Shown here: positions 6,167 to 63,011 of the stretch, piece by piece
Layout: each line of letters opens with the position of its first letter
Position numbering within the stretch: the first letter of the stretch is position 1
DNA from: Panorpa germanica
Taxonomy: Eukaryota; Arthropoda; Insecta; Mecoptera; Panorpidae
DNA: 64,000 bases
Reading direction: 5' to 3'
Assembly (NCBI GenBank): GCA_963678705.1
Contig: OY783203.1
Location: 45,198,347-45,262,346, forward strand
Notes under the pieces: generated by a model
The model's input: only the letters and a program-made list of their open reading frames with translations
What the model was told of the DNA's origin: nothing
Databases searched by the model: none
Position numbers and translations under genes: made by a program

Positions 6167-6598
6167 TTAAGAGGGCAGTGGAGCTACTCATTCATTGGGA
6201 ATGTTTTTCTGAACATTTTCCAACAACGTTTTCATAGAGTTTAGATATTATTACATACATTACAATAAATTTGTGCTATGTAGTATTTTATCTATGGAGT
6301 ATTATTATGTAAAAGATTGAACGTAAAATAATTAAATCGCTTCATGCATTCACGAGTCCAGGTCCAAGTTCGAGAAAAATTATACAGATTTTTCTTTATG
6401 TATAAAAATTCAGTCTGCGTATGTTTGTGCTCGCAAAACTCGGAAAGTAATCGGTCGATTGACTTGAAATTTTGACACAATGAATTTATTTCTTTTGTTT
6501 CTTTCCAGTTGATCGTCGTCACAGCGTCAATTTTTTTTCTAATCGTTATATATTTTGACTAAATACATGGTGCCTGAACTATTTCTGTGCCCTCTTAA
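6167..6598. mobile_element. ~430-bp MITE-like element with TTAAGAGGGCA ends
   Basis: TTAAGAGGGCA at the left and TGCCCTCTTAA at the right are perfect 11-bp inverted repeats, and the reading TTAA/TA at the ends could include the target duplication. A minus-strand open frame inside (6292-6522) reads like translated repeat DNA, with no domain I recognise. I infer a non-autonomous DNA transposon. Confidence 0.55.
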
Positions 6599-28040: not shown

Positions 28041-29261
28041 TATATCCTGATCTGAATATTATTAGATCCAAATTTACATAAATGTTTCCATATAAACAGT
28101 AATATTTTTTTTGTATTAATTACACATAATTTTATTTAGAATGTAAAGTCTGTCATATGTAAATTTGATAACAATTTTTACCGAGCACTTGTATATTGTT
28201 TGCAAAACAATATATTATTCAAATGAGACATCAGTAAACTTTATTCAAAATAATAATATTTAGGTTTAAAAGATATCTTTATTATTGTACATTTCTTACA
28301 AGAAGTTTTGTTTTTACATAGCTATTTGATAAACGATAAAACGAGTTTGGCAGCCTCAAGCCCATGTAGACATATTGTATCATATGATATTTCATGCCAC
28401 AGTTACAACTCCTTACAACATGAGCAAAAAACTGGTTTTCTAAATTGATGTAAATGACATCATTATTATGACGTTTTATAGTCTGATAGTAAGAGTATTA
28501 CAAATTATTTGATCCAAAATTGCTTACTGTACTAATTATAACTATAATAATTAATTTTTTATTACATGCTAATATGCGTGTATATTAAGAAGACACAGGA
28601 CGAAACTGATGTCTTATATTTAACAATGTTTGCTAATTTTCAGGTCACTTAATTAATGGCATTAGAATTTTCATATAAGTCTAAGTTGACTATAATTCTG
28701 AACTGTAACAATGAGGTCGGTATTTATTCCATGACTGAAGAAAAAATGACAACGGTTATACAGTTATTGTGAGCATCATAACCCAGTAGCGGCGGGGCCT
28801 TTAGCAAAATTATTATTGTACGTTCATTATATTTGTAGCTGTTCTATCATAGCGAGTGCTTGTACTTTACTCGGACCTATTCTGTCCAGTGAAATCTCTG
28901 GGTTTCACAGAAAAACATTGTTAAGCTATAGCTGAGACATAATTTGTCCCCGCTTCCAAACGCTTATCAATCCACTTTTCCACTTACTCTCGTAGCTAAC
29001 TGGTTCACGCACATACACCAAGGACACTTTCTAATTGTTGAAATGAGGGAAAATACTCGTTATGTGCAGTTGAATTTTAATGTAGAAGGTGCAAGTACTG
29101 TGAACAAGTTACTCACAATAGTTCAGTGTAGTTTTATGGTACAATTATTGAAATAAGTGGTAAAGATGAGTAGTGACTACTATTTAACATTTAAAATATA
29201 GTTACAATTTTCATTAAGAATTTATATAAAAAATATTAAATATTTTAACACTTTTAGACTG
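28041..29261. other. Non-coding AT-rich spacer
   Basis: No exon or clear repeat was recognised. Confidence 0.5.
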
Positions 29262-34085: not shown

Positions 34086-37000
34086 TGGTATATGCAGATT
34101 ATGCCTCTTCTGGACGTTCATTGAGTTTTTTGGAGGATTATATCCTCCGAGAAGTAGTACCGGTACATGGATCTATTGGAAGTGTCTCCTCTGTTACAGG
34201 ATTACAATCTGATTTATTCAGGTGAGTTTTGTTAACAAAATATTCGATACGAATGTCATGTACCAACATGACAAAACCATATTAATACCATTTCATATTT
34301 ACTACTTAAATACTACATTCATATTGTTAGAGCTATATACTTTCTGGGCCATTTATAGCCGAGATTGTTTCAGTTATGACTACGGTGTCTCTGAATTCAA
34401 ACAGAAGCGTCCTGCTGAAGATAGGACAGGATTATTTATTTACTATAGATATTTCTAATGAAATTATAGTAGTCCTATTTAAATATTTGTAAAAGTTTAA
34501 AACCATATTACATTCAATATAAGTGGTTTAAGTGTGGCCTATCGATAATATAGCAGGCGCTAAAATTATTCCTGTTTTCTTAACAGAATAAAACAAAACA
34601 TTATTTTCTATTCTGGGACTAGCGCTATTAGACCTGAGTTATGGACAACGTTGAATAAATTAAAAAAATGCTTTGGACCACTTGGTAACCACTTTGGGGA
34701 TCCCCAATCTAAAGTAATTGAATGACTGAGTATAAATGTTAAATCAGAAATATTATAACTTATCCTCAGGGCCAGCCCGAACAAAAGCGGGGTTCCGTAC
34801 AACGTTGACTTGCGGGGTAGCCTAAGCCTCTTTAAAAGAAATGCAATCATTTTGATTTTGCAAAATCAGTCAACGTCTTGTGCGCTCGCATCGTTCACAC
34901 CCTGCTCGGGACGACCCTGTATATCAAGTAGAGTTTGTAATAAGTTATAAAATACTACATTTAACAGACAAGAGGCTCGTGATATTATTCGCTCAGCTGT
35001 AAAAGCTGCAGATGACGAGTCCGTTGTATTCTGCAACGCAGACGGGATTCCTTCACGTCTTCGAGGATTGCAATCGCAAAATGGACCAATGATTTTGTTT
35101 GTTGGAAGTCGTGAAACCAAAGAGAATTTGAACTCGTGGGAACGTATGGGTGCTGAGGTAAATATAATTATTATATATAAGCGTACTCTAGCGCCTTGAA
35201 GATAGTCCACCATTGCTTCCCCTTATCCAAATGATTCTAATATTGGACAATATTCTCAAATTTACGTATTTATTTAAGAAGTTAGTGTTTTAAAAAGAGT
35301 GTTCCTTAATTTAATTAAACTTAGTTTAGCTTAATTTAATTTGCTAATTTAAGTTTGCTATAATATAAGTTTAATATAAACAAAACAAAAATAACATTTT
35401 GCAGATTATACGAATCGGTGAAACTCGTGAAGGTTTTCTTGATCTTGTCACTTTGGAGGCTGCTTTAAAAGCTCGTATCAATCAAGGACGGTTGATGGCT
35501 GGTTGGTTTCAAGCTGCCTCCAAAGTGACAGGTATTCTCGCTGATGATGTCGCAACTACAATACTTCTGCATCAGGTATACCACAAATAATTATTCTACA
35601 TAGAACTATAAACTAATTCGTTTGTTACAATAATGCACTCACTCATTTTACAGTATGGCGCACTCGCACTTTGGGATTACTCCACGGCAGCACCATCTTG
35701 CGTGTTAGATATGAATCCACGACTTCCTGGAATAGATATGCGCAGTGTTTCCAAAGATGTTATGTTCTTCTCTGGTCAAAAATTTATAGGCGGTGTCCAA
35801 ACACCCGGTAAGTTGTATTTTTCGTATTTACGATAACTTTTACAATTAAAATGTAGGAATGATAGTAATTGCAGCATCTTTGTGTAGGCATTTTAATTGC
35901 AAAGAATACTCTTCTCGGAAGCGGACCTAATACGGATTGGGGTCCTCCAGCTCTTGTGGAAGCTGTACGTGCAGGATTGACAGTACAACTTAAATGTACA
36001 TTGGGACCAGCTTTCATAATGCAACGTCATGAATCACTTGCTAGGCAAGAACAGCTTCAATATTTTAATTAAATACAAAAGAATCTCTTATATTAATTTG
36101 AATCTATTTGTTTAGGCAAATATTATCACATATCGCAAAAATTCCAGAGATAATTCTTCTTGGAAATGGCTCCCCTTCCACAAAAAGAATTCCTATAATA
36201 TCTTTTATGGTGCGTCATCCTCGTGGGGCCTTTCTTCATCATAACTTTGTCTGCTGTGTACTAAATGATGTTTTTGGGATTCAAGCCCGTGGTGGTTTCG
36301 GAAGAATTGGCCATTTAGCAGACATTTTAGGTATTGATAATGAGCTAGCAAAGAAATATGATACTGTTCTTGAAAAAGATGAAATGGGAAACGGATTAAG
36401 GTATAATAAATTTTGAAATCCTACTTTTAGAGTCACTATTAAAATATTGAGTTTATATTTGAGTATTTATTACGTTACAGTGAAGATTCATCTGAATCAC
36501 ATATGGAGGTTTTACGTCCTGGGTTCTCACGTATCAGTCTGCCTTTTTTTCTATCAGATCCTGAATTGGCTTTCGTATTGGAAGCATTAAAGATGGTTGC
36601 AACCGAAGCATGGAAGTTATTGCCACAGTACATTGTACAGCCGGAGACTGCACAATGGCGTCATCACACAAATGCCATGGTTAAAGATCGTAAGTGGTTG
36701 GCCGCAATTCGTTATACTGATGGTAAGATGATGTGCAATGAACGTAGAATTTCAGGACCAGGTGTGTTTCCACAAAATTTCTCTGATTGTTTAAAAACGG
36801 CCAGAAACCTATTCAGTAGAGCTAGAAGAATGGCGCAAAGATTTCTTTTACCAGAAGAAAGTGGTCTTCTAATTAAGGAAATTGATGAGCTGCGTTGGTT
36901 TATGCTACCATCTGAAGCACAGAGTTTATTGCTTGGAAACTCTCAAAGCGTCAAGCAAAGTGTTCCTTTTGATCCCATAGTGTACTCCTCTAACAGAAGA

Positions 37001-39573
37001 TCCGTATCGGGAATTGATTTAAAGGAATCACAATCACAAATCCATAAAAATACTCCACGTCATTACAGTTTGTCTTCACTGGATGTAAGACCATTTACCC
37101 GTGCTACTCCTATTCAAATCCCTTGTCAAGACTCACTAGTTACCCCGGCGGTTAAATTTTTAGTTGGTGAAGTTGAAACCCCACCAATTTGTCAATCACC
37201 ACCTCAGATTGCCAATTTATTAAATGCTGAAGCGATAAGAACTCGTTGCCATAGCTTAGGTTCTTTCGAAGTATCACCACAAATATTAAGTCCACAAATT
37301 CGAGCCAGTGTTGGTGCAACAAACGCTCCTGTGCATACAAACTCTAGTAGTCAAACAGATCTGCATTCCATGATAACTTACGGTTCTTCTCCTAATTCTT
37401 TCTTTATCAATAACAGCCCGCCGACTGTAAGTAATACTAACGAAGAAATGCAAGCATACGTTAAAGAAGTAACAGAAGAACTTGCAACTGAAATAAAATC
37501 TGAAATTCGTGAAGTGATTAATACTGTTGAAGATGTTCTGGAAAACACGGACACCATAGACATTAGTCATGCAGCACAGATGACTAGACTTAATTCCTCA
37601 GGTGGTAAAAAGAGGAATTCTTTGTCAGCCAATGATATTGCAGAGTATTTAATGGAAGTATCTAAAGAAATGACAAGTGAAGTAAAGTCTGAAATAAGAG
37701 AAGTTGTAAATGCAGTTGATGAAATGATGTCACCAGACATACATTCACCACTTCATTCACGAAAGAATTCTCCTCCAGATATTATGGGTGCTAAAAAATC
37801 TATTCATAGCCCAATTTTGCAGCACAGATTATTTGATGTTTCACAATTACATAGGAAGTCGGATCATAGCAAAGCTTCATTAGGTGCCCATCAACGTTTT
37901 AGTGATGTAACTCTTGAAACGCAGAGGGCAAAAGCTATCGAACAGCAAAATGACACTAAAATAAAAAGATCTGATTCCTTTCCAAGTCCCTCAGCTAATG
38001 CTTCTGAAACGAAATTTCATCAACAAACCGCCGATTCTCCAGAGACCTCCACGCCAGACTGCCCATATACAGGTACCGTTTCAAAACACATACATACCAA
38101 AGTACTTGTCGATGGTGTAAAACTTTCTAACGAAGAAGAACTTGTTGGTAAAGATTGTAAAAAACTGTATAATCAAATTGGAGGAAATACAAATGGTATA
38201 AGCTCTCATGACAGTGGAATAAATTTATCTTTCCACGAGCAGGAAGAATCCTTGATTCAAAACCGTAGAACGAACTCTGAGCCAAGTGGTGGTATTCAAA
38301 GACAAATTTGTACTAACAAATTTAAATCGCACAGTTTACAACATAAAATGATGAGCGATCAACACGAAGTTCCTGACATAATAGAAGGTGTGGCAGTTTC
38401 CAACAACAAAATCGAACAAGAATCCACAGCGGACCAAGTAATGGAAGAACAGGAAGAAATTAAATTTCATAAGCTTCCAAATAATCTTTTTAATCAAATA
38501 TTAGAGGTAAATTAAAACCATTAATTTCATATAAATAAGTCGTTGTATTTAATTCTGAATTATTATTTTAGACCATTGATAAATTTAATATGATCAATTC
38601 TGGTGATCGAATCCTAGTTTGCCTAAGCGGTGGTGCAAACTCTTTAAGCCTTTTGCATGCCCTAAACCAAGTTAGGGAGGAACGCAATATGTCTTTTGAT
38701 ATTGGAGCAGTAACAGCTGGAAATCCTCGATGCGATCCACGAACTTTGATGTTGTATTTGAAATCATTGAATGTTCACTACATGTTGCAAGAACCAGGTA
38801 ATTATTGTAGACAAGTATCTTAGTATCTACCAGTACAATGATTAATGTACAGTTGTATGTTTACAGCTGCTCAAGGTGATCCGTTAAACCCCCGTGACTC
38901 ATTGTGTGCAGCAGCTATACGTGGAGGATATAATGTTTTAGCAGAAGGTCATAGTTTAGAACAACTTGCTGAGGCTTTCTTATCATCTGCTTTCAACATG
39001 GGAAAAATACAAGCCTTAAATGCCAAATACACTGTTAAGTAAGTAATTACTATATTAATATTTTAGTAAGTGGCTGGTCATTTAATACGTCACATGGATA
39101 TGTCCTAGTTACAGTCACACGAAAGATTACTACTAAAAATGCTTTAATTTATAATTCGAAAAATGTAAATGTTAAAATATATAAATCGCTAGTTATCTCT
39201 TAAACATAAGACTTACATTATATTTATTTTAGGGCAAACTCTATACAAATTATCAGGCCGCTAATATTTGTACGTGAAAAATTATTACAATTCTTCAGCG
39301 AAGAAAAGCGTTTACCATCCCGGCCTCCTGCTCCAGCCGGTTCTCACAGACTGATGTTGCAACAGCAGGAACTACTAAATCCAAGCCTCTACGACAATTT
39401 ACGTAATGCGCTACGTCCACTTGTAGACTGCAATATGTAAGTTCTATTCACCAAAATTAAAGGTTGTTTTTATTTATAAAGAATTAAAAATTAAAGATTT
39501 GTATTACTACAGAGAAGCCAATGGAGATTCAATAACAGCAGATGCCAAATGCAGCTTGAAAAGTGAACAATGA
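34086..39573 (+). CDS. Class V aminotransferase/TtcA-like PP-loop fusion protein (5' incomplete; likely pseudoenzyme)
   Basis: Exons by phase-consistent splicing: 34086-34221, 34968-35157, 35405-35575, 35654-35807, 35888-36044, 36116-36400, 36481-38506, 38572-38797, 38867-39038, 39233-39436, 39513-39573 (stop TGA). They give 1259 residues plus a missing N-terminus. Residues ~1-440 are a PLP-dependent class V aminotransferase (cysteine desulfurase-like): VVYADYASSGRSLSF start, ALALWDYSTAAPSC, and the PLP lysine in SGQKFIGGVQTPG. Residues ~500-950 are a Ser/Lys/Glu-rich linker with a duplicated helix. Residues ~960-1240 are a PP-loop ATPase like bacterial tRNA 2-thiocytidine synthase TtcA (LVCLSGGANSLSLL, EGHSLEQLAEAFL, IQIIRPLIFVREK). 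The pairing suggests a persulfide donor joined to a tRNA thiolase, but several catalytic residues are lost (see findings), so function is uncertain. Intron 5 has a GC donor. The first coding exon was not found between 33824 and 34085. Confidence 0.85.
36045..36115 (+). other. GC-AG intron in the fusion gene
   Basis: The reading frame joins only if the upstream exon ends at CTTGCTAG and the intron starts GCAAGA, ending TTGTTTAG. Joining gives ...HESLARQILSHIAK..., in frame with the downstream exon. Shifting the junction within the shared TAGGCAA does not produce a GT donor. The intron is 71 bases. Confidence 0.8.
37441..37735 (+). repeat. Duplicated ~33-residue helical repeat inside the linker
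   Basis: Two copies in the large exon: one with EELATEIKSEIREVINTVED (37465-37540) and one with KEMTSEVKSEIREVVNAVDE (37666-37725). They share the core SEIREV-x-N-x-V-D/E and have a heptad-like spacing of hydrophobic residues, so a short coiled coil is likely. The copies are about 190 bases apart. Confidence 0.7.
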
Positions 39574-41705: not shown

Positions 41706-42340
41706 TGGGCTTGTGTCCTATGTCTTAATTTCTATAAAAGTGTACTATATATTGATAAAGTGGGTTACTAGAACCTCAAATGTTCAATTATTTTTTAATA
41801 ACTCCTTATATGTTAGGAGATATTAACAATTAAAAAAGTCATTTTGTCTCTTTAATTATTAAAGGGATTCAACGTTGTACAAACTCCAAATGCATGTGAC
41901 ATCACAATCCTTGTGTAAGGTTACCAACCTTACAGATCATAAATCTCTGCTATATGTATTTATATATCAAAATATCAAATAGTATTTACAGTTATTTCAA
42001 GGAACAATAAAATTTCAATATTATGTCTGCCTTAACAGGGTTGAATAAAGTAAAAACTTATTATTATTTGACTTGACTGGATTGTTTGAGTACCAACAGC
42101 TACAAAACATTACCACAACACTGACCTACTCAACAAATAACTGACGTTAAAATGCATTTCATGTCATACAAATATGGGTGACCATTTCTAGCGCTAAAAC
42201 TACAATTCAAATTTTTAATTGCTATATCTCCGTCAATATTTAGATATTTAATAAAATAGACACGCCAATACACATTTATTAACATCAATTTCAATCAACA
42301 ATTGAAAAATCGACCACTAAAAAATGAGGACACAAGCCCA
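41706..42340 (+). mobile_element. 635-bp TIR element, left copy
   Basis: Begins TGGGCTTGTGTCCTATGTC and ends AAAATGAGGACACAAGCCCA, so its own ends are inverted repeats of about 14 bases (TGGGCTTGTGTCCT). The interior is AT-rich and non-coding. A copy of the same length lies in the opposite orientation at 46233-46867 and matches along its whole length with few differences. No target duplication was obvious. Confidence 0.85.
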
Positions 42341-42392
42341 TTATTATTATTATTATTTAAAATTAATAATTATCCATATTTAATAAATAGTT

Positions 42393-42925
42393 AGCTTAAA
42401 TCTAAACTAAGACGCCATCTGCTAAGCAATAGCTACACCAGGATAGTCCTGAATTTCTTTAAAAGAATGCGCTGCATCAGTCGTGTAATAAACCGCCTGA
42501 TCGTTATACTACTATAAATACACAAAGGTAGTTGCATTCTAAAATTAATTCTTTGCTAGAATTTAAAAGACATAGGTTTTATCAATTTCAACAAGAGTTT
42601 AATCTTCTTTAATTCAGAAAACGTTGATTCATAAAACTATATTTAATTATTACTATTATTTTTTAAAATTATTAATTAACACTATTTAATAATTATTTAC
42701 CTCAAATTCAAACCAAGCTGCCATCTACTAAGCAATAGCTATAACAAGGACAGTTATGGATTTCTTTAAAAGAATGCGCTGCAGCAGTCGTTGTATAAAC
42801 CGCCTGACCGTTACACTACTATAAATACACAAATAGAATTGCATTCTAAAATTAATACCTTGGTAGAATTAAAAATACAAAGGTTTTATCAATTTCAGCA
42901 AGAGTATAAACCTTCTTTCATTTCA
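42393..42925. repeat. Direct repeat pair of ~230 bp
   Basis: The block 42407-42620 (GCCATCTGCTAAGCAATAGC, TTTCTTTAAAAGAATGCGCT, CTATAAATACACAAA) recurs at 42720-42925 (GCCATCTACTAAGCAATAGC and the same following blocks) with an offset of about 305-310 bases. Both carry ACACTACTATAAATACACAA-like sequence. They lie between the left TIR element and the tandem array, and probably form the 5' part of the Helitron-like unit. The frame at 42791-43015 is accidental. Confidence 0.75.
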
Positions 42926-43026
42926 AGGAAAGCAGAAAATATCATGGACACTTTTTATAAAAACAAAAAAAATTACATTTCTTTAAAATTCTTGATGCAG
43001 TTATGTTCGCTATGAGTTAAAAGAAA

Positions 43027-44338
43027 GAACTGCTTCATTACTTTTTAAATAACTTCGCGTGTCTGGCTTTTACGCGACTTTTTTAAAATTCATGGACTTT
43101 TTTTTCTAATTTTTTTAAAAGATACCTTAAAATATTTTAATGCGGTTATGTTCGTTAGGCTTTAAAATAAAGAACTGCTTCATTACTTTTTAAATACCTA
43201 CGCGTGTCTGGCTTTTATGCAATTTTTTTAAAACTCATGGACTTTTTGTTTTTAATTTTTTTTTTCGATTTCTTGAAATATTTTGATGCAGTTATGTTCG
43301 TTAGGCTTTACAATAAATAACTACTTCATTACTTTTTAAATAACTAAGCGTGTCTGACTTTTACGCGACTTTTTTAAAATTCATGGACTTCTTTTTCTAA
43401 TTTTTTTTTCTTGATTTCTTGAAATATTTTGATGCAGTTACGTTTGTTAGGCTTTAAAATAAAGAACTGCTTCATTACTTTTTAAATAACTAAGCGTGTC
43501 TGGCTTTTATGCAACTTTTTTAAAATTCATGGACTTTTTGTTTTTAATTTTTTTTCTTGATTTCTTGAAATATTTTGATGCAGTTACGTTCGTTAGGCTT
43601 TAAAATAAATAACTGTTTCATTACTTTTTAAATATCTACGCGTGTCTGGCTTTTATGCAATTTTTTTAAAACTCATGGACTTTTTGTTTTCAATTTTTTT
43701 CTTTCGATTTCTTGAAATATTTTGATGCAGTTATGTTCGTTAGGCTTTAAAATAAATAACTGCTTCATTACTTTTTAAATAACTAAGCGTGTCTGACTTT
43801 TACGCGACTTTTTTAAAATTCATGGACTTCTTTTTCTAAATTTTTTTTCTTGATTTCTTGAAATATTTTGATGCAGTTACGTTCGTTAGGCTTTAAAATA
43901 AAGAACTGCTTCATTACTTTTTAAATAACTAAGCGTGTCTGAGTTTTATGCAACTTTTTTGAAATTCATGGACTTTTTTTTCTAATTTTTTTTTCTTGAT
44001 TCCTTGAAATATTTTGATGCAGTTATGTTCGTTAGGCTTTAAAATAAAGAACTGCTTCATTACTTTTTAAATATCTACGCGTGTCTGGCTTTTATACAAC
44101 TTTTTCAAAATTCATGGACATTTTTTTTCTAAATTTCTTTTTTGATTTCTTGAAATATTTTGATGCAGTTATGTTCCTTAGGCTTTAAAATAAAGAACTG
44201 CATCATTACTTTTTAAATAACTAAGTGTGTTTGGCTTTTATGCGACTTTTTTAAAATTCATGGACTTTTTCTTCTAAATTTTTTTTTTATTTCTTGAAAT
44301 ATTTTGATGTAGTTACGTTCCTTAGGCTTTAAAATAAA
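43027..44338 (+). repeat. Tandem array, nine units of ~146 bp
   Basis: Units start at about 43027, 43172, 43318, 43464, 43610, 43757, 43903, 44049 and 44195, a period of 144-147. Each unit reads GAACTGCTTCATTACTTTTT, GCGTGTCTGGCTTTTA, TTCATGGACTTTTT, a T-rich stretch, TTGAAATATTTTGATGCAGT and CGTTAGGCTTTAAAATAAA. The units differ by scattered substitutions and by the length of the T run. Confidence 0.9.
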
Positions 44339-44865
44339 GAACTGTTCAATTTAAATTGAAATATTTGTCCTTTACTGGCTTTAGAGTAAACAATAAAAAA
44401 GTAAAAATAAATATTTTAAAACGCTGTTTATTCGAAAACGGTAAGAGATAATTAAAAATGGTTTTCAATTTTGGAATCAGCGTAAAAAACTACGTTAGAA
44501 AAGATGTATCATGTGCCAAAATAGAAAAAGTGTTTTTTGTGAAAAGTAAGAAGAGTTCTTACTTTTCTTAAAAATTGATGAAAAAAATTTGTTTATTTTT
44601 TAATGGTTTTTAATGTAGTTTTGAATGCTGATTTCAAATCTGGAATTCATTTTTATGTAAGTCTTTTGGTTTGCGAGATATAAGCATTTTAAATTAAAAA
44701 ATAGTCAAAAACTTTACACACAGATTATTCGAAAACTATAACAGATAATTAAAAATGGACTTCAATTTTGGAATCAGCATAAAAAACTACGTCAGAAAAC
44801 ACAAATCATTTTTCAAAAATATAAATATTTTAGTTTTAGGAAAAAAGGTCCATGAATTTAAAAAA
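44339..44865. repeat. Spacer between the opposed arrays, with direct repeats and a perfect hairpin
   Basis: TTATTCGAAAACGGTAAGAG with GGAATCAGCGTAAAAAACTA (from 44427) recurs as TTATTCGAAAACTATAACAG with GGAATCAGCATAAAAAACTA (from 44726), a ~75-bp direct repeat. Between them AAAAGTAAGAA-GAG-TTCTTACTTTT (44542-44566) is a perfect 11-bp stem with a 3-base loop. The spacer separates the plus and minus arrays. Confidence 0.75.
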
Positions 44866-45790
44866 GGTCGCTTAAAAGCCAGATACGCGTAGATATTTAA
44901 AAAGTAATGCAGCAGTCCTTTATCTTAAAGCCTAAGGAACATAACTGCATCAAAATATTTTAAAGAATCAAGAAAAAAAAATTTAGAAAAAAAAGTCCAT
45001 GAATTTTAAAAAAGTTGCATAAAAGCCAGACACGCTTAGTTATTTAAAAAGTAATGAAGCAGTTATTTATTTTAAAGCCTAACGAACGTAACTGCATCAA
45101 AATATTTCAAGAAATCAAGAAAAAATATTTAGAAAAAGAAGTCCATGAATTTTAAAAAAGTCGCGTAAAAGTCAGACACGCTTAGTTATTTAAAAAGTAA
45201 TGAAGCAGTTATTTATTGTAAAGCCTAACGAACATAACTGCATCAAAATATTTCAAGAAATCGAAAAAAAAAAATTAAAAACAAAAAGTCCATGAGTTTT
45301 AAAAAAGTTGCATAAAAGCCAGACACGCTTAGTTATTTAAAAAGTAATGAAGCAGTTCTTTATTTTAAAGCCTAACGAACGTAACTGCATCAAAATATTT
45401 CAAGAAATCGAAAAAAAAAAATTAAAAACAAAAAGTCCATGAGTTTTAAAAAAGTTGCATAAAAGCCAGACACGCTTAGTTATTTAAAAAGTAATGAAGC
45501 AGTTCTTTATTTTAAAGCCTAACGAACGTAACTGCATCAAAATATTTCAAGAAATCAAGAAAAAAAATTTAGAAAAAGAAGTCCATGAATTTTAAAAAAG
45601 TCGCGTAAAAGTCAGACACGCTTAGTTATTTAAAAAGTAATGAAGCAGTTATTTATTGTAAAGCCTAACGAACATAACTGCATCAAAATATTTCATGGAA
45701 TCAAAAAAAAATTTTTAGAAAAAAAGTCCATAAACTTTAAAAAAGTTGCATAAAAGCCAGATGCGCGTAGATATTTTAAATTTAATGAAA
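44866..45790 (-). repeat. Tandem array of the same ~146-bp unit in opposite orientation
   Basis: The marker GTAATGAAGCAGTT (reverse complement of the unit start) or a variant occurs near 44911, 45051, 45196, 45342, 45489, 45634 and 45783, so six to seven units are present. Together with 43027-44338 this makes an inverted repeat of about 0.9 kb per arm. Confidence 0.9.
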
Positions 45791-45890
45791 CAGTTTATCA
45801 ATTTAACCTGCAGCGTATATATCTCAATTAAAAAATTACCCCATTTAAATTAAATATATATTATTAGAAAAAATCAAGCACATAACTCAC

Positions 45891-45922
45891 ACTCGTTGTG
45901 TTGCAACGGGTCGAACAGCTAG
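45891..45922 (+). mobile_element. Helitron-like 3' terminus
   Basis: ACTCGTTG-TGTTG-CAACGGGT forms an 8-bp stem (one T-G pair) with a 5-base loop, followed by CGAACAG and CTAG, then T. Helitrons end with a short hairpin roughly 10-12 bases before CTRR and insert between A and T, so this fits the 3' end rule. I could not place the matching 5' TC end with confidence; it should lie between 42341 and 42400 if the unit includes the arrays. Confidence 0.6.
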
Positions 45923-45923
45923 T

Positions 45924-46232
45924 AACGATTCTAATGTTGAACAAAATTCTCCAATTTTCAATTAATTTATTGGAATTCTTTTATGCCATTTTTTACATTA
46001 AAAATAGAGTTTTACGTCTAAATATATAAAAAAAATTAGATTATCCGAATAGGTGAATTTCGTAAATGTGTTTTTGATCTTGTAACTTGAGAGGCTGCTT
46101 CAAAAGCATATCTATTAAAACACATCAATCAAGCACGTCCGTTGAATAGTACCCATTACTATTCATTATTTATTTCATTAACAGATGGCACATTGGTTTA
46201 AAGCAGTTGCCCAAGACAGTATGCAACACAAA
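45924..46232 (+). pseudogene. Decayed duplicate of intron 2, exon 3 and part of intron 3/exon 4 of the fusion gene
   Basis: ATTATCCGAATAGGTGAA and TTTTTGATCTTGTAACTTGA, GAGGCTGCTTCAAAAGCA (46040-46108) follow exon 3 of the gene (ATTATACGAATCGGTGAA, TTTCTTGATCTTGTCACTTT, GGAGGCTGCTTTAAAAGCT; 35405-35470). The preceding ACGATTCTAATGTTGAACAA matches intron 2 near 35231, and ATTAACAGATGGCACA (46180) resembles the exon 4 acceptor. An insertion creates a TGA stop in frame after DLVT. Intron sequence is retained, so it is a DNA-level copy, not a retrocopy. Confidence 0.8.
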
Positions 46233-46867
46233 TGGGCTTGTGTCCTCATTTTTTAGTGGTCGATTTTTCAATTGTTGATTGAAATTGATGTTAATAAATG
46301 TGTATTGGCGTGTCTATTTTATTAAATATCTAAATATTGACGGAGATATAGCAATTAAAAATTTGAATTGTAGTTTTAGCGCTAGAAATGGTCGCCCATA
46401 TTTGTATGACATGAAATGCATTTTTACGTCAGTTATTTGTTGAGTAGGTCAGTGTTGTGGTAATGTTTTGTAGCTGTTGGTACTCAAACAATCCAGTCAA
46501 GTCAAAGAATAATAAGTTTTTACTTTATTTAACCCTGTTAAGGCAGACATAATATTGAAATTTTATTGTTCCTTGAAATAACTGTAAATAATATTTGATA
46601 TTTTGATATATAAATACATATATCAGAGATTTATGATCTGTAAGGTTGGTAACCTTACACAAGGATTGTGATGTCACATGCATTTGGAGTTTGTACAACG
46701 TTGAATCCCTTTAATAATTAAAGAGACAAAATGACTTTTTTAATTGTTAATATCTCCTAACATATAAGGAGTTATTAAAAAATAATTGAACATTTGAGGT
46801 TCTAGTAACCCACTTTATCAATATATAGTACACTTTTATAGAAATTAAGACATAGGACACAAGCCCA
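46233..46867 (-). mobile_element. 635-bp TIR element, right copy, inverted
   Basis: Reverse complement of 41706-42340 over the full length (starts TGGGCTTGTGTCCTCATTTT, ends AAGACATAGGACACAAGCCC A). Few differences were seen on reading, for example one near 42176/46396. It closes the 5.2-kb nested structure. Confidence 0.85.
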
Positions 46868-57383: not shown

Positions 57384-60300
57384 TCAAGGTGGTTTGATAT
57401 CTTCTTTGTCCTTTAAGGCATTTAACAAATGTATTCGTAGTTGAAAATCTGAACTTTCTAATAATCGCATAAGATCGTCTTTGGATAACTTCTTCAAAGG
57501 TGATTCCGCAATTGTTTTTGCGTGGGTGAATTCTTGGAATTGATCGTACATGCTGCTGCAGGTGTCGTACTTGCTCCGATCATTTCTTTTACTCTTTTTT
57601 CCTTTTTCTGGTTTAATATTATCATTTCTTTGATTCGTATTCTCTAAATGTGCATCTAAACTTCGTGTTCTCTGTTCATAGTATTTACTGGTAGCGTTTT
57701 GATGCCTATACTTTCTAGAGGAGTTTACTTCTTGACGGTGTCTGGATGTATGCTCCAATGATTTCCCTTTGTCTTGGTCTACGATTTTAGTAGTAGACTC
57801 CATTTTCTTTGTTTTGGGATGCGCTGGGAAGGCTTCTTGGTGTTGTTGTTCTTTAGATTGTTGTTGGTGATGAGATTGCTGCCGCTGGTGTGGTTGCGAA
57901 TCATACTCGTGCTGATTCATGTTCTTCTTATGGTCCGAGTGTTCAGCGGACTGTTGTTTCACCGGGTGATGTTGTACAACAACATTATGCTGATTCGGAA
58001 CATAATTTCCCGTTTGCTCACTTTGGCTTCGACATACATGCCGTTTTTTTAATGCCATTTGATTATGCAGCTGATCCAATGTTTGTTTTCGCAACTTGAC
58101 TATTTCTGGGTCTGCCGTTTGCCGTGCCTCTTTTTCTCTAGCACTTATTTCTGCAGATATAGTGTGTGGCTTTAAATCCAACTCAGGCAAACACTCTGCA
58201 CTTTTTAGTTCCAAATTATTCTCATATAAATCTAATCTCAAAATGGGTCGTTTCTGAGTAACTACTCCTCTGTAAGAGCCCTTTGGAGGAGCAATAGTTT
58301 TTGCTTTGCATTTTGGAATAGTTTCATTTTTATTGCTTAGGGGATATTGACTAAGACTTAGTTTGCTATTAAAATCTGGAGGACTGGTGTTTAGATCGAT
58401 GTCTCTACTTAATCGACGTCCTATGTTGTCTAATCTACTATTATGGTCATTAAATATACTTTCTGAACTAAATCTCCTAACATTCAAAGAACTGTTAGAA
58501 AATTTATTATCATTTTTTTTAAATAAATCTTTTTTACTAAATAATTTAAATTTTTGTCTATCGAGTGTTGCGCTATGTTGTGGAATTGGCTCATTTATTG
58601 ATACAGCAGACTTATTCATATTACTGGAGCTGCCGATGTACTTTTGGTTCTCTTGATGTTTTGCTTTAGTGTCCTTACATAACGTTGCTGGTTTTGGAGG
58701 TAATGGAGGTTTCTGAGAAGGTTCCGATAATTCTGTTTCTTGAAGGACTTGTAATGAAGAAACGGAAGGCAATGATGGCAGTGAGGGCAAAGAAGGCAAA
58801 GAGGGAGATCGCGATGTCTTTTTGGAACTTGAGGTAGGTAGTGAGTGCTGCGTGTGACTTTGTGGAACTGGCTGTTTTCTTTCTTCTTGTTGAACCCTGT
58901 GATGAAAAACCAATTCTAGTAATTGAAAAAAAAAAGGATATGTAAAATATTTTACCGTCTGATTTCTTGAATCATTTCAAAAAATTGTGCCTTGCTCTTT
59001 CTTCTCCGCCTTTGTTCATGTTCCTTCTGAAACAAATAAATTTTAAACAAACTGCACTGATAAATTTTAAACAATTTGCAATGATTTGCAAATGATTTGT
59101 TGTTCCAACGTACCCGTTTGACGCTCTTTTGAAACAGGCTGGTAATCTGACCTTGCCTCAGTGTGTTAACAAGCTCCCGAGCTGCATGATGGGGAGATAC
59201 TAGCTCCACACAATTAATAAATCTGTACAATTTCTGTAATAAAATATATTAATGTTATAAATATTGTACAAATTGTTTTTAAATAATTGACATGGTTTAC
59301 CTGACTGAAGAACATTATATTGCGACTCTTCCAAATACTGTTTCGTGGCTTGTGTCTTAAAATGGGCAATGTATATTTATAAAATAAGTGCTCAAATAGT
59401 AGAATTAAGAACCCTAAAAATATTCCAAATCCCAACAACAAGAAAACACCAGACACAGCTTCGATACCTTTAAACAATTTACATTTTATAAAAAAAAAGT
59501 AATTTAAAAAACTTATTTGTAGTTTAATATTTAGTAATAGGTCACAGTACCTAAAGGTCTGGGTTGTGCAATAATATCGTTATCTAATCTGAAGCATGGC
59601 AAATCTCCAAACCATTTGTGATGCAAAATGTCTAAAAATCCGTTATTAGAATAAGTGGACAACACTGTCGAAATACTATCCTTTAGTGGAAAACCTTTCG
59701 TCATTCCTGAAATTATTGTTTTTATATATATAATTGTTGAAATCTTGCAATACCTTATAAAGAATTTCAATTTTACCAATTGCGTATGTATCATGATTCA
59801 TCAAAGTTTCACCAATCTTCTTCAATTTACATCCATTGTCTGTACCTCGATAGTAATCTAAAATGGAGGTATCTGCTACCAGCACATCAAGAGATCCATT
59901 TCTGTACATAGGAACATATACCGCACTTTTCAGAAAATGGCGGAAAATTATTTAAAATGTAAATAATTCGAATACACCTACCTTAGTTTAGTAATTCCAT
60001 CCTCGACATTTACAAGGCTGTACTTGCGAACATGATCCCACAGCTGTAGGCTGTTTTCCTGAATATAAGACTCTGCAGCAGAAGCACGGGGAACGCCTAC
60101 ACGTTGCGTCAGCAACTGAAATTAGTAAACCTTGTTTAAACGTACTGTTCTGCCCTATTCATAATGTCACTTTTTATAAATACTTACATCTTTATCGTTT
60201 TGATAGTTATTAGAATTTTGGAAAAATAACCCAGCAATAAGTGCGGCGATGTTGGCAGTATAACTAGCTACAAAGATTACGGAGAAACCGCCCCAAACGT

Positions 60301-61460
60301 TGATAAGAAATTTATTAGGCCAGCATTTTGGTGCTTTAAAAGCAACAAGGTGTCCGCAAAGTAGACCCCACATAACCCAAAGGGCAGAAGATATGCTAAA
60401 GTTTTTACTTCGTTGTCTACCCCATGGGTTCAATCCAAATGGTGACAACCATTCGTAGACCGCCACTGACAAAGCTGTTATGTTCAAGGAAACAAAAATA
60501 GCGACCCAGAGCTCGAAACTAAATGGTAGAAGAAATGCTAGCAAAGGAATTTCTGTTGTACCTTTCGTTGAAGCTAAAAATGATACACTTGAGTAAAAAT
60601 ATGGAGTTGTAAAATCAATAACTTCACTTCGAGCTGATGAGACACTCAATGGCGCGAATGTGAGGTGTGCACTCCCAGAAATCAATTCACCCATTATTCC
60701 ATTCCATTTCGGCTCTGGGGCTTCTGGTTGTTGTATGAAAACTTCACCATGTTTAAACTGTTCTTTCTTAAAATATTTTCCATTTTGAAGCAAATGTTTT
60801 CCACCATTTTGAAAATAAATGCCATTTTGAATATCAAAACGGCTCCTCAATAAGTCAAATTTCTTAAGATTTCTTGCACCAAAATATCCATCATTTACGA
60901 TGTATAAGTAAAAACCAAAATTCAAGTCCTGAGAAATATGCTCCAAAAGATCCATAGAAAATCCGTAGCAGCACATTGTAGAGTACTTGTCGCTTTGTGA
61001 GGGTTCGTACGAATCTTCATTAGCCTGCTGCTCGGATTGCTCTATTTCCTGCAGAACTAGACTCATATTGTAACGACCCGTTGTGAATATGTGGTAGCAC
61101 TTCAGTCCACGAAGACATGTACCATCGTCGCTCAAGGAACTCTGCATGACAAACGGGGGCGAAATGGCGGTCACTATTTTAAACTTATTCAGTTTATTTC
61201 TAGTTTTATGTAAATCAGATATAATTATGTCTCCTCCAGGCCATACTATCGTGTTCAGGTTAACGTTGTTGCCCAAAATGTAGCCAACGTTTCTCCATTT
61301 GACAGGCATTTCACCATCACTGTTGCTATTTTCGTAGTTTCCGTTTTCATTTGAAACAAGATTTATAACTTCAAAGTTTGAGATCAATATTTTCTCCGGG
61401 TACAAAAAATTATGATGACTTTTCCCAGACAGCACTGCAGTGGTTGTTGATTTAAGTTCC
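57384..61460 (-). CDS. Nmdar2: NMDA-type ionotropic glutamate receptor subunit, Nmdar2-like (5' incomplete)
   Basis: Minus-strand exons: 61460-60188, 60115-59982, 59925-59777, 59706-59551, 59467-59301, 59233-59114, 59026-58956, 58896-57384. All phases match and give 1193 residues without the N-terminus. Order: end of the amino-terminal domain (VGYILGNNVNLNTIVWPGG), ligand-binding S1 (FKIVTAISPPFV to SSARSEVIDFTTPYF), M1 (FELWVAIFVSLNITALSVAV), pore loop M2 (ALWVMWGLLCGHLVAF), M3 with the gating motif SYTANIAALIAG, S2 (RASAAESYIQ, VLVADTSILDYY, GFPLKDSISTVLSTYSNNGF), M4 (GVFLLLGFGIFLGFLILLFE) and a tail of ~500 residues rich in Gln, His, Ser and Lys with PPLPPKP. The channel sits in the plasma membrane. 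Features shared with GluN3 make GluN3 an alternative label. It is convergent with DNAJC10. Confidence 0.9.
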
Positions 61461-63011
61461 CTGTAAAAAACAAATTCAGAAATAAATAAAGCGACATTGT
61501 ATTATTACGTTAGTTTATACTACGGTCATCTGCGGCAGTTTTAAGATTTTGCCTCCCTGGCAAACTATTTGTTAAAAGTAGGCGTAAATAAGCCTGTAGT
61601 TATAAATACTGATATGTATACATTTTAACAATTGCTTTATTACTAATTGTAACTAATGAAATACTCATTTAACTACTTTATCAATATAAAGTCGAATTTA
61701 AAAGTACACAACCGAATTGTCAACGTTTGATAACGTTTGTCGTATACTCGTGTGTATAATATTTATCGTTTCAATTCATATTTATTGGTTAGATTACCAA
61801 AACTAAATTCTAAGCTCTTAAGTCTTTTAAGTCGTCGATTTAATTCCCTTCAAAGTCTTGAGGGTTGTCCTGGAATGATGAGTTGGTGTCTCTTGGCATA
61901 CTGGTACGAGTATCTCTGCTAGCATGTTCCCTAGGGAGCTCTTGGAACATGTTGCCTTAGCGGAAGTCGGAAAGGACGAAAGACGAGAAGGCAGGCTAAC
62001 TGTCAACTATTAACTTAAACAAGGCAACAATTACTATTCATTTATTAACTTAAACTTGTGTTGCCAATCAGTCGGGACGAATTAAGTTCTAAGAAAAATC
62101 TATTTTCTATTTAAATTGATGACGAAAGATAACGGATACCGGATAAACGGATAACGAATATCTGAATAAGGTTTTGTGGGAAAGATAAACTGAAAAATTT
62201 GCCCGAAAAATTAAAAAGTTCTCGAAAAACTGAAAGTGCTTTTAATGACGAAAAACTGATTCAGTTGCTTATTTTCAGTTGAACTGTGAAATTAATTATT
62301 AAAATATGACAGGATAACGTCTGTCGGGCAAGCTACTAATCAATAATATCAATAGATTTTCTTCACGTGAAATTGTACAGTTACAAATGGTAGTTACTTT
62401 GCAATAGATAATAATAATAGATAGATTCAATATTAGTTACAAATATTACATTCTTTACATTGAAAATATAATTGGTTTAATTTGCTAATGGTTTAAAAGT
62501 GGAAAGCTTTTAAAAGCCACTCTAGATCAGTGTAGAATCAAAATACTAATGCATCACAATGAAACAGGGTTTTTGGGTTTTTGATATAAAAAGTCATAGA
62601 AAGTGGTCGTTTATCCAGAAACAATCAATGTTTCATGAACTGATCCACATAATTAAATTTTATTTGAAGTTAAAAAATGAGGAATGAGACTATTACAATA
62701 TATTTTCTAGATACTATCTTACCTAAAAAAGAGTTTATATTAACAGAAGCAAATAATGCTAATATTTGTCTGTTCTGTTGACTATAGAAAATGATTTTTT
62801 GGTGGAGACGCTGCTTTATATAATATTCTGATCATTAAATAAATATGGTAGAAATATAGATAAACTTATACGTTTTATGAAAGTTGAGTTTACGAAGTTT
62901 CTTTTTGCCGATTAAATTTATAAGGTGATAATACAATTTTGTACGAAATATTACAAAAGTTATCTAGAGAAGTGTGGAATAATGTCCCTTTGTACTTTTC
63001 CTGTATTTTCT
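61461..63011. other. Intron or 5' flank of the glutamate receptor gene
   Basis: The exon ending at 61460 starts with a partial codon after a TTTTTTACAG acceptor, so more exons lie upstream on the minus strand. I found no convincing amino-terminal-domain exon here. A GC-richer patch at 61850-61990 contains a short palindrome around CCCTAGGGAGCTC. Confidence 0.55.

Follow-up and report, generated by a model that had tools for sequence, protein, structure and literature searches.

Why would an insect retain a long protein built of two enzyme folds if the catalytic motifs of both have been altered? This question is raised by a gene on the plus strand of a 64,000-nucleotide stretch of contig OY783203.1 of Panorpa germanica (hereafter the window; positions are those of the window unless a contig coordinate is stated). 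The encoded protein joins a SufS-like fold of the class-V, pyridoxal 5'-phosphate (PLP)-dependent type (domain 1) to a TtcA-like PP-loop fold (domain 2) through a long Ser-rich linker. A preliminary description had proposed that the protein is kept for a non-catalytic role. Comparing both domains with their bacterial relatives, we consider it rather probable that this single-copy gene encodes a retained double pseudoenzyme, which would act as a non-catalytic scaffold or regulator.

Altered active sites in two enzyme folds

The 11 exons in the window (34086-39573, plus strand) join in phase and yield 1,259 open codons, as anticipated by the preliminary description, which had reported 11 phase-consistent exons free of stops. 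Read in its two alternative frames, the spliced window sequence contains 82 and 112 stops. The motifs read earlier as SGQKFIGG (with the PLP lysine), RGGFGRIGH, SGGANS, DSLC, EGHSLEQ and PPAPAGSH are all correct. The claim that both halves have lost catalytic features within an intact frame holds in alignments to 87 bacterial relatives for domain 1 and to six TtcA-type proteins for domain 2.

Domain 1 passed the gathering cut-off of Pfam Aminotran_5 (PF00266; 35.8 bits against 21.5) and fell below the cut-off of the SufS family model, NCBIfam TIGR01979 (30.2 bits against 475.1). In the search against the bacterial family, the best match reached E = 4e-91, the best 80 of at least 574 confirmed genome loci showed 32-39% identity, and 79 plasmid records carried a match. 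Seven of the plasmid records and 80 genome loci supplied the 87 proteins of the alignment, in which a column conserved in at least 95% of the proteins was regarded as near-invariant. When PDB sequences were searched, the bacterial family, which is related to SufS, matched 43 of them at E <= 1e-8 (best, 4.6e-41), whereas the insect domain alone reached only E = 0.00067.

Fifty-four of the 139 near-invariant columns are lost in the insect domain and 85 are kept, compared with 21 lost in the most changed of the 87 bacterial relatives. These counts omit four columns that precede the first residue encoded in the window; a separate alignment including them gave 58 lost out of 143. The losses comprise the ANTHTE loop, the GSGxT loop, EHHSN, the His of SPHK, the Asn of SNVTG, the segment PGGGTV...REEGGT and GGCxCAGPY, and the Thr of the GTP turn is gone as well. 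The lost elements align with EHH, SxHK, the glycine-rich loop/hairpin and RxGHHCA of cysteine desulfurases. EHHSN became ETKEN, by which the EHH histidines disappeared, RGGFGRIGH stands where the nucleophilic cysteine of RxGHHCA is expected, and approximately 25 residues after the PLP lysine, aligned to the SufS insertion or beta-latch, are absent. The domain keeps the PLP lysine, the aligned Asp and an Arg near its end. The lysine of SGQKF aligns with the SSHK/SGHK lysine of two desulfurase chains; the Arg, located in PGFSRIS, is conserved in the bacterial family, and the desulfurase fragments compared end before it.

The Arg of PGFSRIS may be the counterpart of the substrate-carboxylate Arg of SufS, and we take the EHH histidine to be the acid-base His. 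Roles in the pocket are likewise assumed for the Thr of GSGxT, the His before the lysine, the Asn of SNVTG, the Asp and the Thr of the GTP turn. In SufS, the lysine binds PLP, a cysteine is the nucleophile and a His acts in acid-base steps, according to portions of PMC8300815 and PMC11408855. The portions of PMC8300815 consulted define type II desulfurases by the RxGHHCA cysteine and, together with those of PMC10011822, by the insertion following the PLP lysine (the beta-latch in the latter), and the latter describes the element matching the lost insect region as helping to position SufE. PLP binding, one of the roles offered in the preliminary description, is weakly indicated for the insect protein, which keeps the lysine and the aligned Asp but has neither the phosphate loop nor the EHH histidines nor the GTP-turn Thr.

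The best family for domain 2 is TtcA (NCBIfam PRK10696; E = 2e-28, 99.5 bits, below the model cut-off of 272). TtcA carries two CxxC motifs, three cysteines of which bind the cluster, as stated in the part of PMC5372739 consulted. The six bacterial TtcA-type proteins used for comparison were drawn from 45 plasmid records with a match to the domain. SGGKDS and the first CxxC are present in all six, and the insect protein has SGGANS and DSLC instead. GHHxDD, found in five (the sixth bears GHHRED), is replaced by GHSLEQ, and the second CxxC region, also found in five, by PPAPAGSH; both CxxC motifs are complete in five of the six. Consequently to these changes, a single one of the four CxxC cysteines is retained. 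Roughly nine residues before GHSLEQ and eight after the second CxxC region are deleted. Judged by their sequences, both domains are enzyme folds from which catalytic residues have been lost, which is one of the marks of a pseudoenzyme.

Gene structure, retention and copy number

Nine of the 10 introns among the window exons have a GT donor, and the intron 36045-36115, inside the conserved domain 1, is of the GC-AG type. The preliminary description had placed the start of the gene at 34086, which did not stand: the first window exon opens inside a codon, and a coding exon should precede it. No upstream exon fitting the first window exon was found inside the window. We then scanned 100 kb upstream with a profile of the 14 preceding residues, built from the 87 bacterial relatives. 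The best position with a GT in the right phase was RGGCFFGPYGRRK, with the donor GTAAGT and a score of 9.9, the runner-up reaching 0.8; a position with a higher score (13.4) lacked a GT donor. The frame of this candidate exon opens with ATG (MGSVRKIVNRKFGDD...) directly after a stop codon and reads MGSVRK...GPYGRRK followed by a split Val codon. It ends at contig coordinate G000:C21:45176889, 55,542 bases upstream of the first window exon and outside the window. On the strength of family profile, phase and donor we infer that this is the first coding exon; if it is included, the full gene would comprise 12 coding exons and encode 1,318 amino acids (Table 1).

The GC contents at codon positions 1, 2 and 3 (GC1, GC2 and GC3) are 0.514, 0.406 and 0.276, respectively, and that of the introns is 0.283; the codon-position pattern is the same in domain 1, the linker and domain 2. 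With GC3 at the level of the introns and both GC1 and GC2 above it, the composition is as expected under long protein-level selection. Neutral decay was simulated in 60 histories at each of four levels of amino-acid change, and none of the 60 remained open at any level, with 4.9 stops on average at 5% change. The result speaks against an accumulation of the losses without selection, while a recent release from constraint would still be compatible. The proposal of a protein kept for a non-catalytic role is thereby upheld in part: its retention gains indirect support from the codon-position composition and the decay simulation.

The deletions lie inside exons and thus do not represent skipped exons. 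When both strands of the window were searched for the motif patterns, a few loose matches appeared (such as GSGAT at 6174 and HHN at 28771), none of which had family-like flanks by eye. The 87 bacterial proteins searched by tblastn on the window (E <= 1) hit the known exons and a few isolated places elsewhere.

The insect genome (464 Mb, 249 contigs) was searched for further copies. An intact bacterial query, run exon by exon, gave four matches, all to this gene, in addition to one weak match containing stops (E = 0.26), and no second copy of the exon 36481-38506 was found in the genome. The catalytic paralog that the preliminary description had suggested looking for was therefore not found within the limits of the exon-by-exon search. 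The Pfam Aminotran_5 search, in which 12 of 20 candidates were scored, gave eight matches that we take, from their translations, to be PSAT, NFS1 (four pieces), MOCOS, ALAS and AGT; five of these eight loci were inspected. As this search did not recover the gene under study, it does not prove the absence of a diverged paralog. The hits of the TtcA model were this gene and, in two pieces, a CTU1-like gene whose motifs read SGGKDS and GHNADD.

Around the bacterial relatives, a TtcA gene was found in none of 87 loci (flanks of at most 5 kb, less where a contig ended), the six TtcA loci serving as working controls; the fusion is thus seen here only in the insect. Such a fusion was not described in the titles and abstract openings of the literature covered, a partial coverage that does not show its absence from print. 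No relatives of the window protein were found in viral contigs by its own patterns or in phage records; scanning viral contigs with the bacterial alignment turned up 12 weak loci of 22-27% identity. The relative in Sagittula (L003:3917-7406) lies near an L-2-amino-thiazoline-4-carboxylate hydrolase gene, and that in Rhizobium (L005:3842-7056) near genes for an MBL-fold hydrolase and a TauE/SafE-type exporter. These neighbours are a hint of cysteine or sulfur metabolism for the intact bacterial family.

The linker contains 72 Ser in the 543 residues tested. The pattern R-x-x-S-x-P occurs three times versus 0.28 expected by shuffling (p = 0.0014), R-x(2,3)-S-x-P four times versus 0.55 (p = 0.0018) and RSxSxP once versus 0.03 (p = 0.03); the counts for RxxS (8 versus 4.8, p = 0.08) and [RK][RK]xS (2 versus 0.74, p = 0.17) are closer to expectation. 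14-3-3 binding, as predicted from these motifs, is a lead and not a result. The linker also bears two helix-like repeats, for which an AKAP-type helix reading was considered and dropped on inspection by eye.

Table 1. Coding exons, altered motifs and linker features of the gene (window positions; for each motif, the form in relatives is followed by that in the insect protein)
Feature	Positions	Strand	Description
Exon 2 (first in the window)	34086..34221	+	VVYADYASSGRSL..., start of domain 1; ANTHTE to GSIGSV at 34169-34186
Exon 3	34968..35157	+	GSGATA phosphate loop to NADGIP (35035-35058, including two flanking residues)
Exon 3, second motif	35104-35127	+	GPYEHHSN to GSRETKEN
Exon 4	35405..35575	+	SNVTG to SKVTG (35519-35533)
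Exon 5	35654..35807	+	Asp kept in WDYS (35672-35683)
Exon 5, lysine motif	35771-35794	+	PLP lysine kept in SGQKFIGG; SPHK to SGQK
Exon 6	35888..36044	+	GC donor; compared with the SufS beta-latch as described in part of PMC10011822
Exon 7	36116..36400	+	GGCxCAGPYGH catalytic-cysteine loop to GGFGRIGH (36291-36314)
Exon 8 (2,026 bp)	36481..38506	+	End of domain 1 (PGFSRIS 36518-36538, LRWFMLP 36890-36910) and Ser-rich linker
Linker, helix-like repeat, copy 1	37454..37546	+	AYVKEVTEELATEIKSEIREVINTVEDVLEN; helix by eye
Linker, helix-like repeat, copy 2	37643..37729	+	14 of 37 residues identical to copy 1, ungapped
Linker, three 14-3-3-like R-x-x-S-x-P motifs	37760-37777, 37967-37984, 38267-38284 (stretch 37760..38284)	+	From the pattern count
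Exon 9	38572..38797	+	PP-loop domain; SGGKDS to SGGANS (38626-38643)
Exon 10	38867..39038	+	CSLC to DSLC (38896-38907); about 9 amino acids deleted
Exon 10, second motif	38944-38964 (including one flanking residue)	+	GHHxDD to GHSLEQ
Exon 11	39233..39436	+	PCNLCGSQ to PPAPAGSH (39324-39347), followed by an 8-amino-acid deletion
Exon 12	39513..39573	+	C-terminus and stop codon

Weighing the explanations

Pseudoenzymes as such are already known. For the double pseudoenzyme favoured here, both folds would persist because of a role in bridging or regulating partners that needs no turnover. The class-V half is probably still a dimer, the linker would be a region for phosphorylation and docking with 14-3-3 as a candidate reader (phospho-control being speculative), and the PP-loop half may still bind nucleotide or tRNA weakly. 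As for the origin, we tentatively put forward, at somewhat less than even confidence, that the insect lineage converted a fusion enzyme for sulfur donation and sulfur insertion into a phosphorylation-controlled scaffold. The active sites would have been dismantled by loop deletion plus point changes, and the dimer platform, the docking linker and the 55-kb first intron (for which a regulatory use is assumed) would have been kept. If true, one chain would carry two unrelated sulfur-handling enzymes, both deprived of their motifs and with no catalytic copy found, and would cleanly illustrate the reuse of enzymes as structure. Moreover, it would offer a setting in which non-catalytic control of sulfur or tRNA biology could be tested in insects.

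Several points weigh against a double pseudoenzyme. Two desulfurase chains outside the bacterial family differ at 78 and 82 of the 139 near-invariant columns, and thus the loss count alone is no proof of inactivity; it is the identity of the residues that counts. The losses do not concentrate on the columns shared with desulfurases (22/57 versus 32/82 of the unshared ones, Fisher p = 1.0), and no clustering was found at any of the three conservation levels tested (p = 0.76, 1.0 and 0.63). Shared and unshared columns being lost equally often, the change is broad and extends beyond the pocket. Some cofactor chemistry is conceivable with the PLP lysine, Asp and Arg kept in domain 1. SGGANS is still PP-loop-like; as a mild change (Lys to Ala and Asp to Asn), it does not by itself exclude ATP binding. 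The five linker patterns were picked after the sequence had been read.

The main rival explanation is control of a live enzyme: the protein would bind to, for example, NFS1 or CTU1 of the insect itself and govern its activity within the complex, in the way proposed for Ctu2 and Ctu1. Candidate partners are present in the genome, namely an NFS1-like gene with the cysteine loop SGSACTSAS and the CTU1-like gene with SGGKDS and GHNADD. The beta subunit of tryptophan synthase uses PLP. As precedents, a noncatalytic paralog of this subunit activates the alpha subunit in plants (from a portion of PMC12727527), and both Ctu proteins are required in vivo even though Ctu2 has no cluster cysteines (from a portion of PMC10067955). 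On the other hand, the two domains are SufS-like and TtcA-like rather than NFS1-like or CTU1-like, and the region aligned with the SufE-positioning element of SufS is gone, a partner being suggested here by analogy. We regard control of a live partner as unlikely. A changed enzyme, in which another active site built from the lysine, Asp and Arg would carry out a new reaction, appears more doubtful still: these three residues are kept, but change or loss has affected the phosphate loop, the EHH histidines and the cysteine loop, as well as the segment contributing in SufS to the active site of the neighbouring subunit, and the motifs of domain 2 are lost too.

Motifs and segments missing from both domains are also what a decaying pseudogene still free of stops would present. 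This is very improbable: the window holds 1,259 stop-free codons, every one of 60 neutral runs had acquired a stop at 5% amino-acid change, GC1 and GC2 clearly exceed GC3 and the intron GC, and 85 of 139 near-invariant positions are kept. We give hardly any credence to an artefact, be it an assembly error or another isoform that restores the motifs. The deletions are in frame, within exons and at several separate places, no motif match elsewhere in the window looked family-like by its flanks, and the intact bacterial query found only this gene and the one weak, stop-containing match.

Surroundings and known systems

Downstream of the gene, two tandem arrays of a unit of approximately 147 bp lie at 42977-44348 and 44835-45795 with oppositely oriented consensus units, and the short reading GIQRCTNSKCM*HHNPCVRLP occurs at both 41900 (plus strand) and 46673 (minus strand). 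By its sequence layout, 41900-46673 is a large inverted satellite-bearing element. On the minus strand, a 444-amino-acid open stretch at 60167-61501, which presumably resembles part of an N-methyl-D-aspartate (NMDA)-type glutamate receptor, adjoins a Ser/Gln-rich open stretch of 530 amino acids at 57384-58976. Of 20 COX1 matches in the genome, a single one lies on the mitochondrial contig C249. The other 19 are on different contigs, seven of them with an internal TAA or TAG, and are likely nuclear copies of mitochondrial DNA. In its gene content and proteins the mitochondrial contig reads as that of an insect. It has the tRNA order Ile-Gln-Met, while that of ditrysian Lepidoptera is Met-Ile-Gln, and the assignment to Lepidoptera assumed in the preliminary description is probably wrong. 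Searches for the gloverin and 30K lipoprotein families gave nothing, but neither did they in any control genome, so this negative carries no weight.

Among known proteins, the bacterial 'aminotransferase class V-fold PLP-dependent enzyme' family (e.g., WP_265385135.1 of Rhodococcus antarcticus) can be aligned over approximately 415-490 residues with 30-39% identity among the matches listed. It shares the N-terminal GPYGxRR and, in part of its members, the C-terminal LRWFxLP with the insect protein, but differs in active-site blocks that are at least 95% conserved per column in the 87 proteins. Through this family, domain 1 has its fold in common with the type II cysteine desulfurase SufS and keeps the lysine and Asp, whereas it is devoid of the catalytic cysteine, the EHH histidines, the glycine-rich loop and the beta-hairpin. 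Domain 2 shares the PP-loop fold with TtcA, the enzyme for 2-thiolation of tRNA C32, at 26-30% identity to the six TtcA-type proteins, but differs by SGGANS, DSLC, GHSLEQ, PPAPAGSH and two deletions. We know of no Ctu2/Ncs2 fused to a PLP fold. Ctu2/Ncs2 is a PP-loop relative that likewise lacks the cluster cysteines and is thought to support a live partner (PMC10067955, in part), but it belongs to the Ctu1/NcsA branch.

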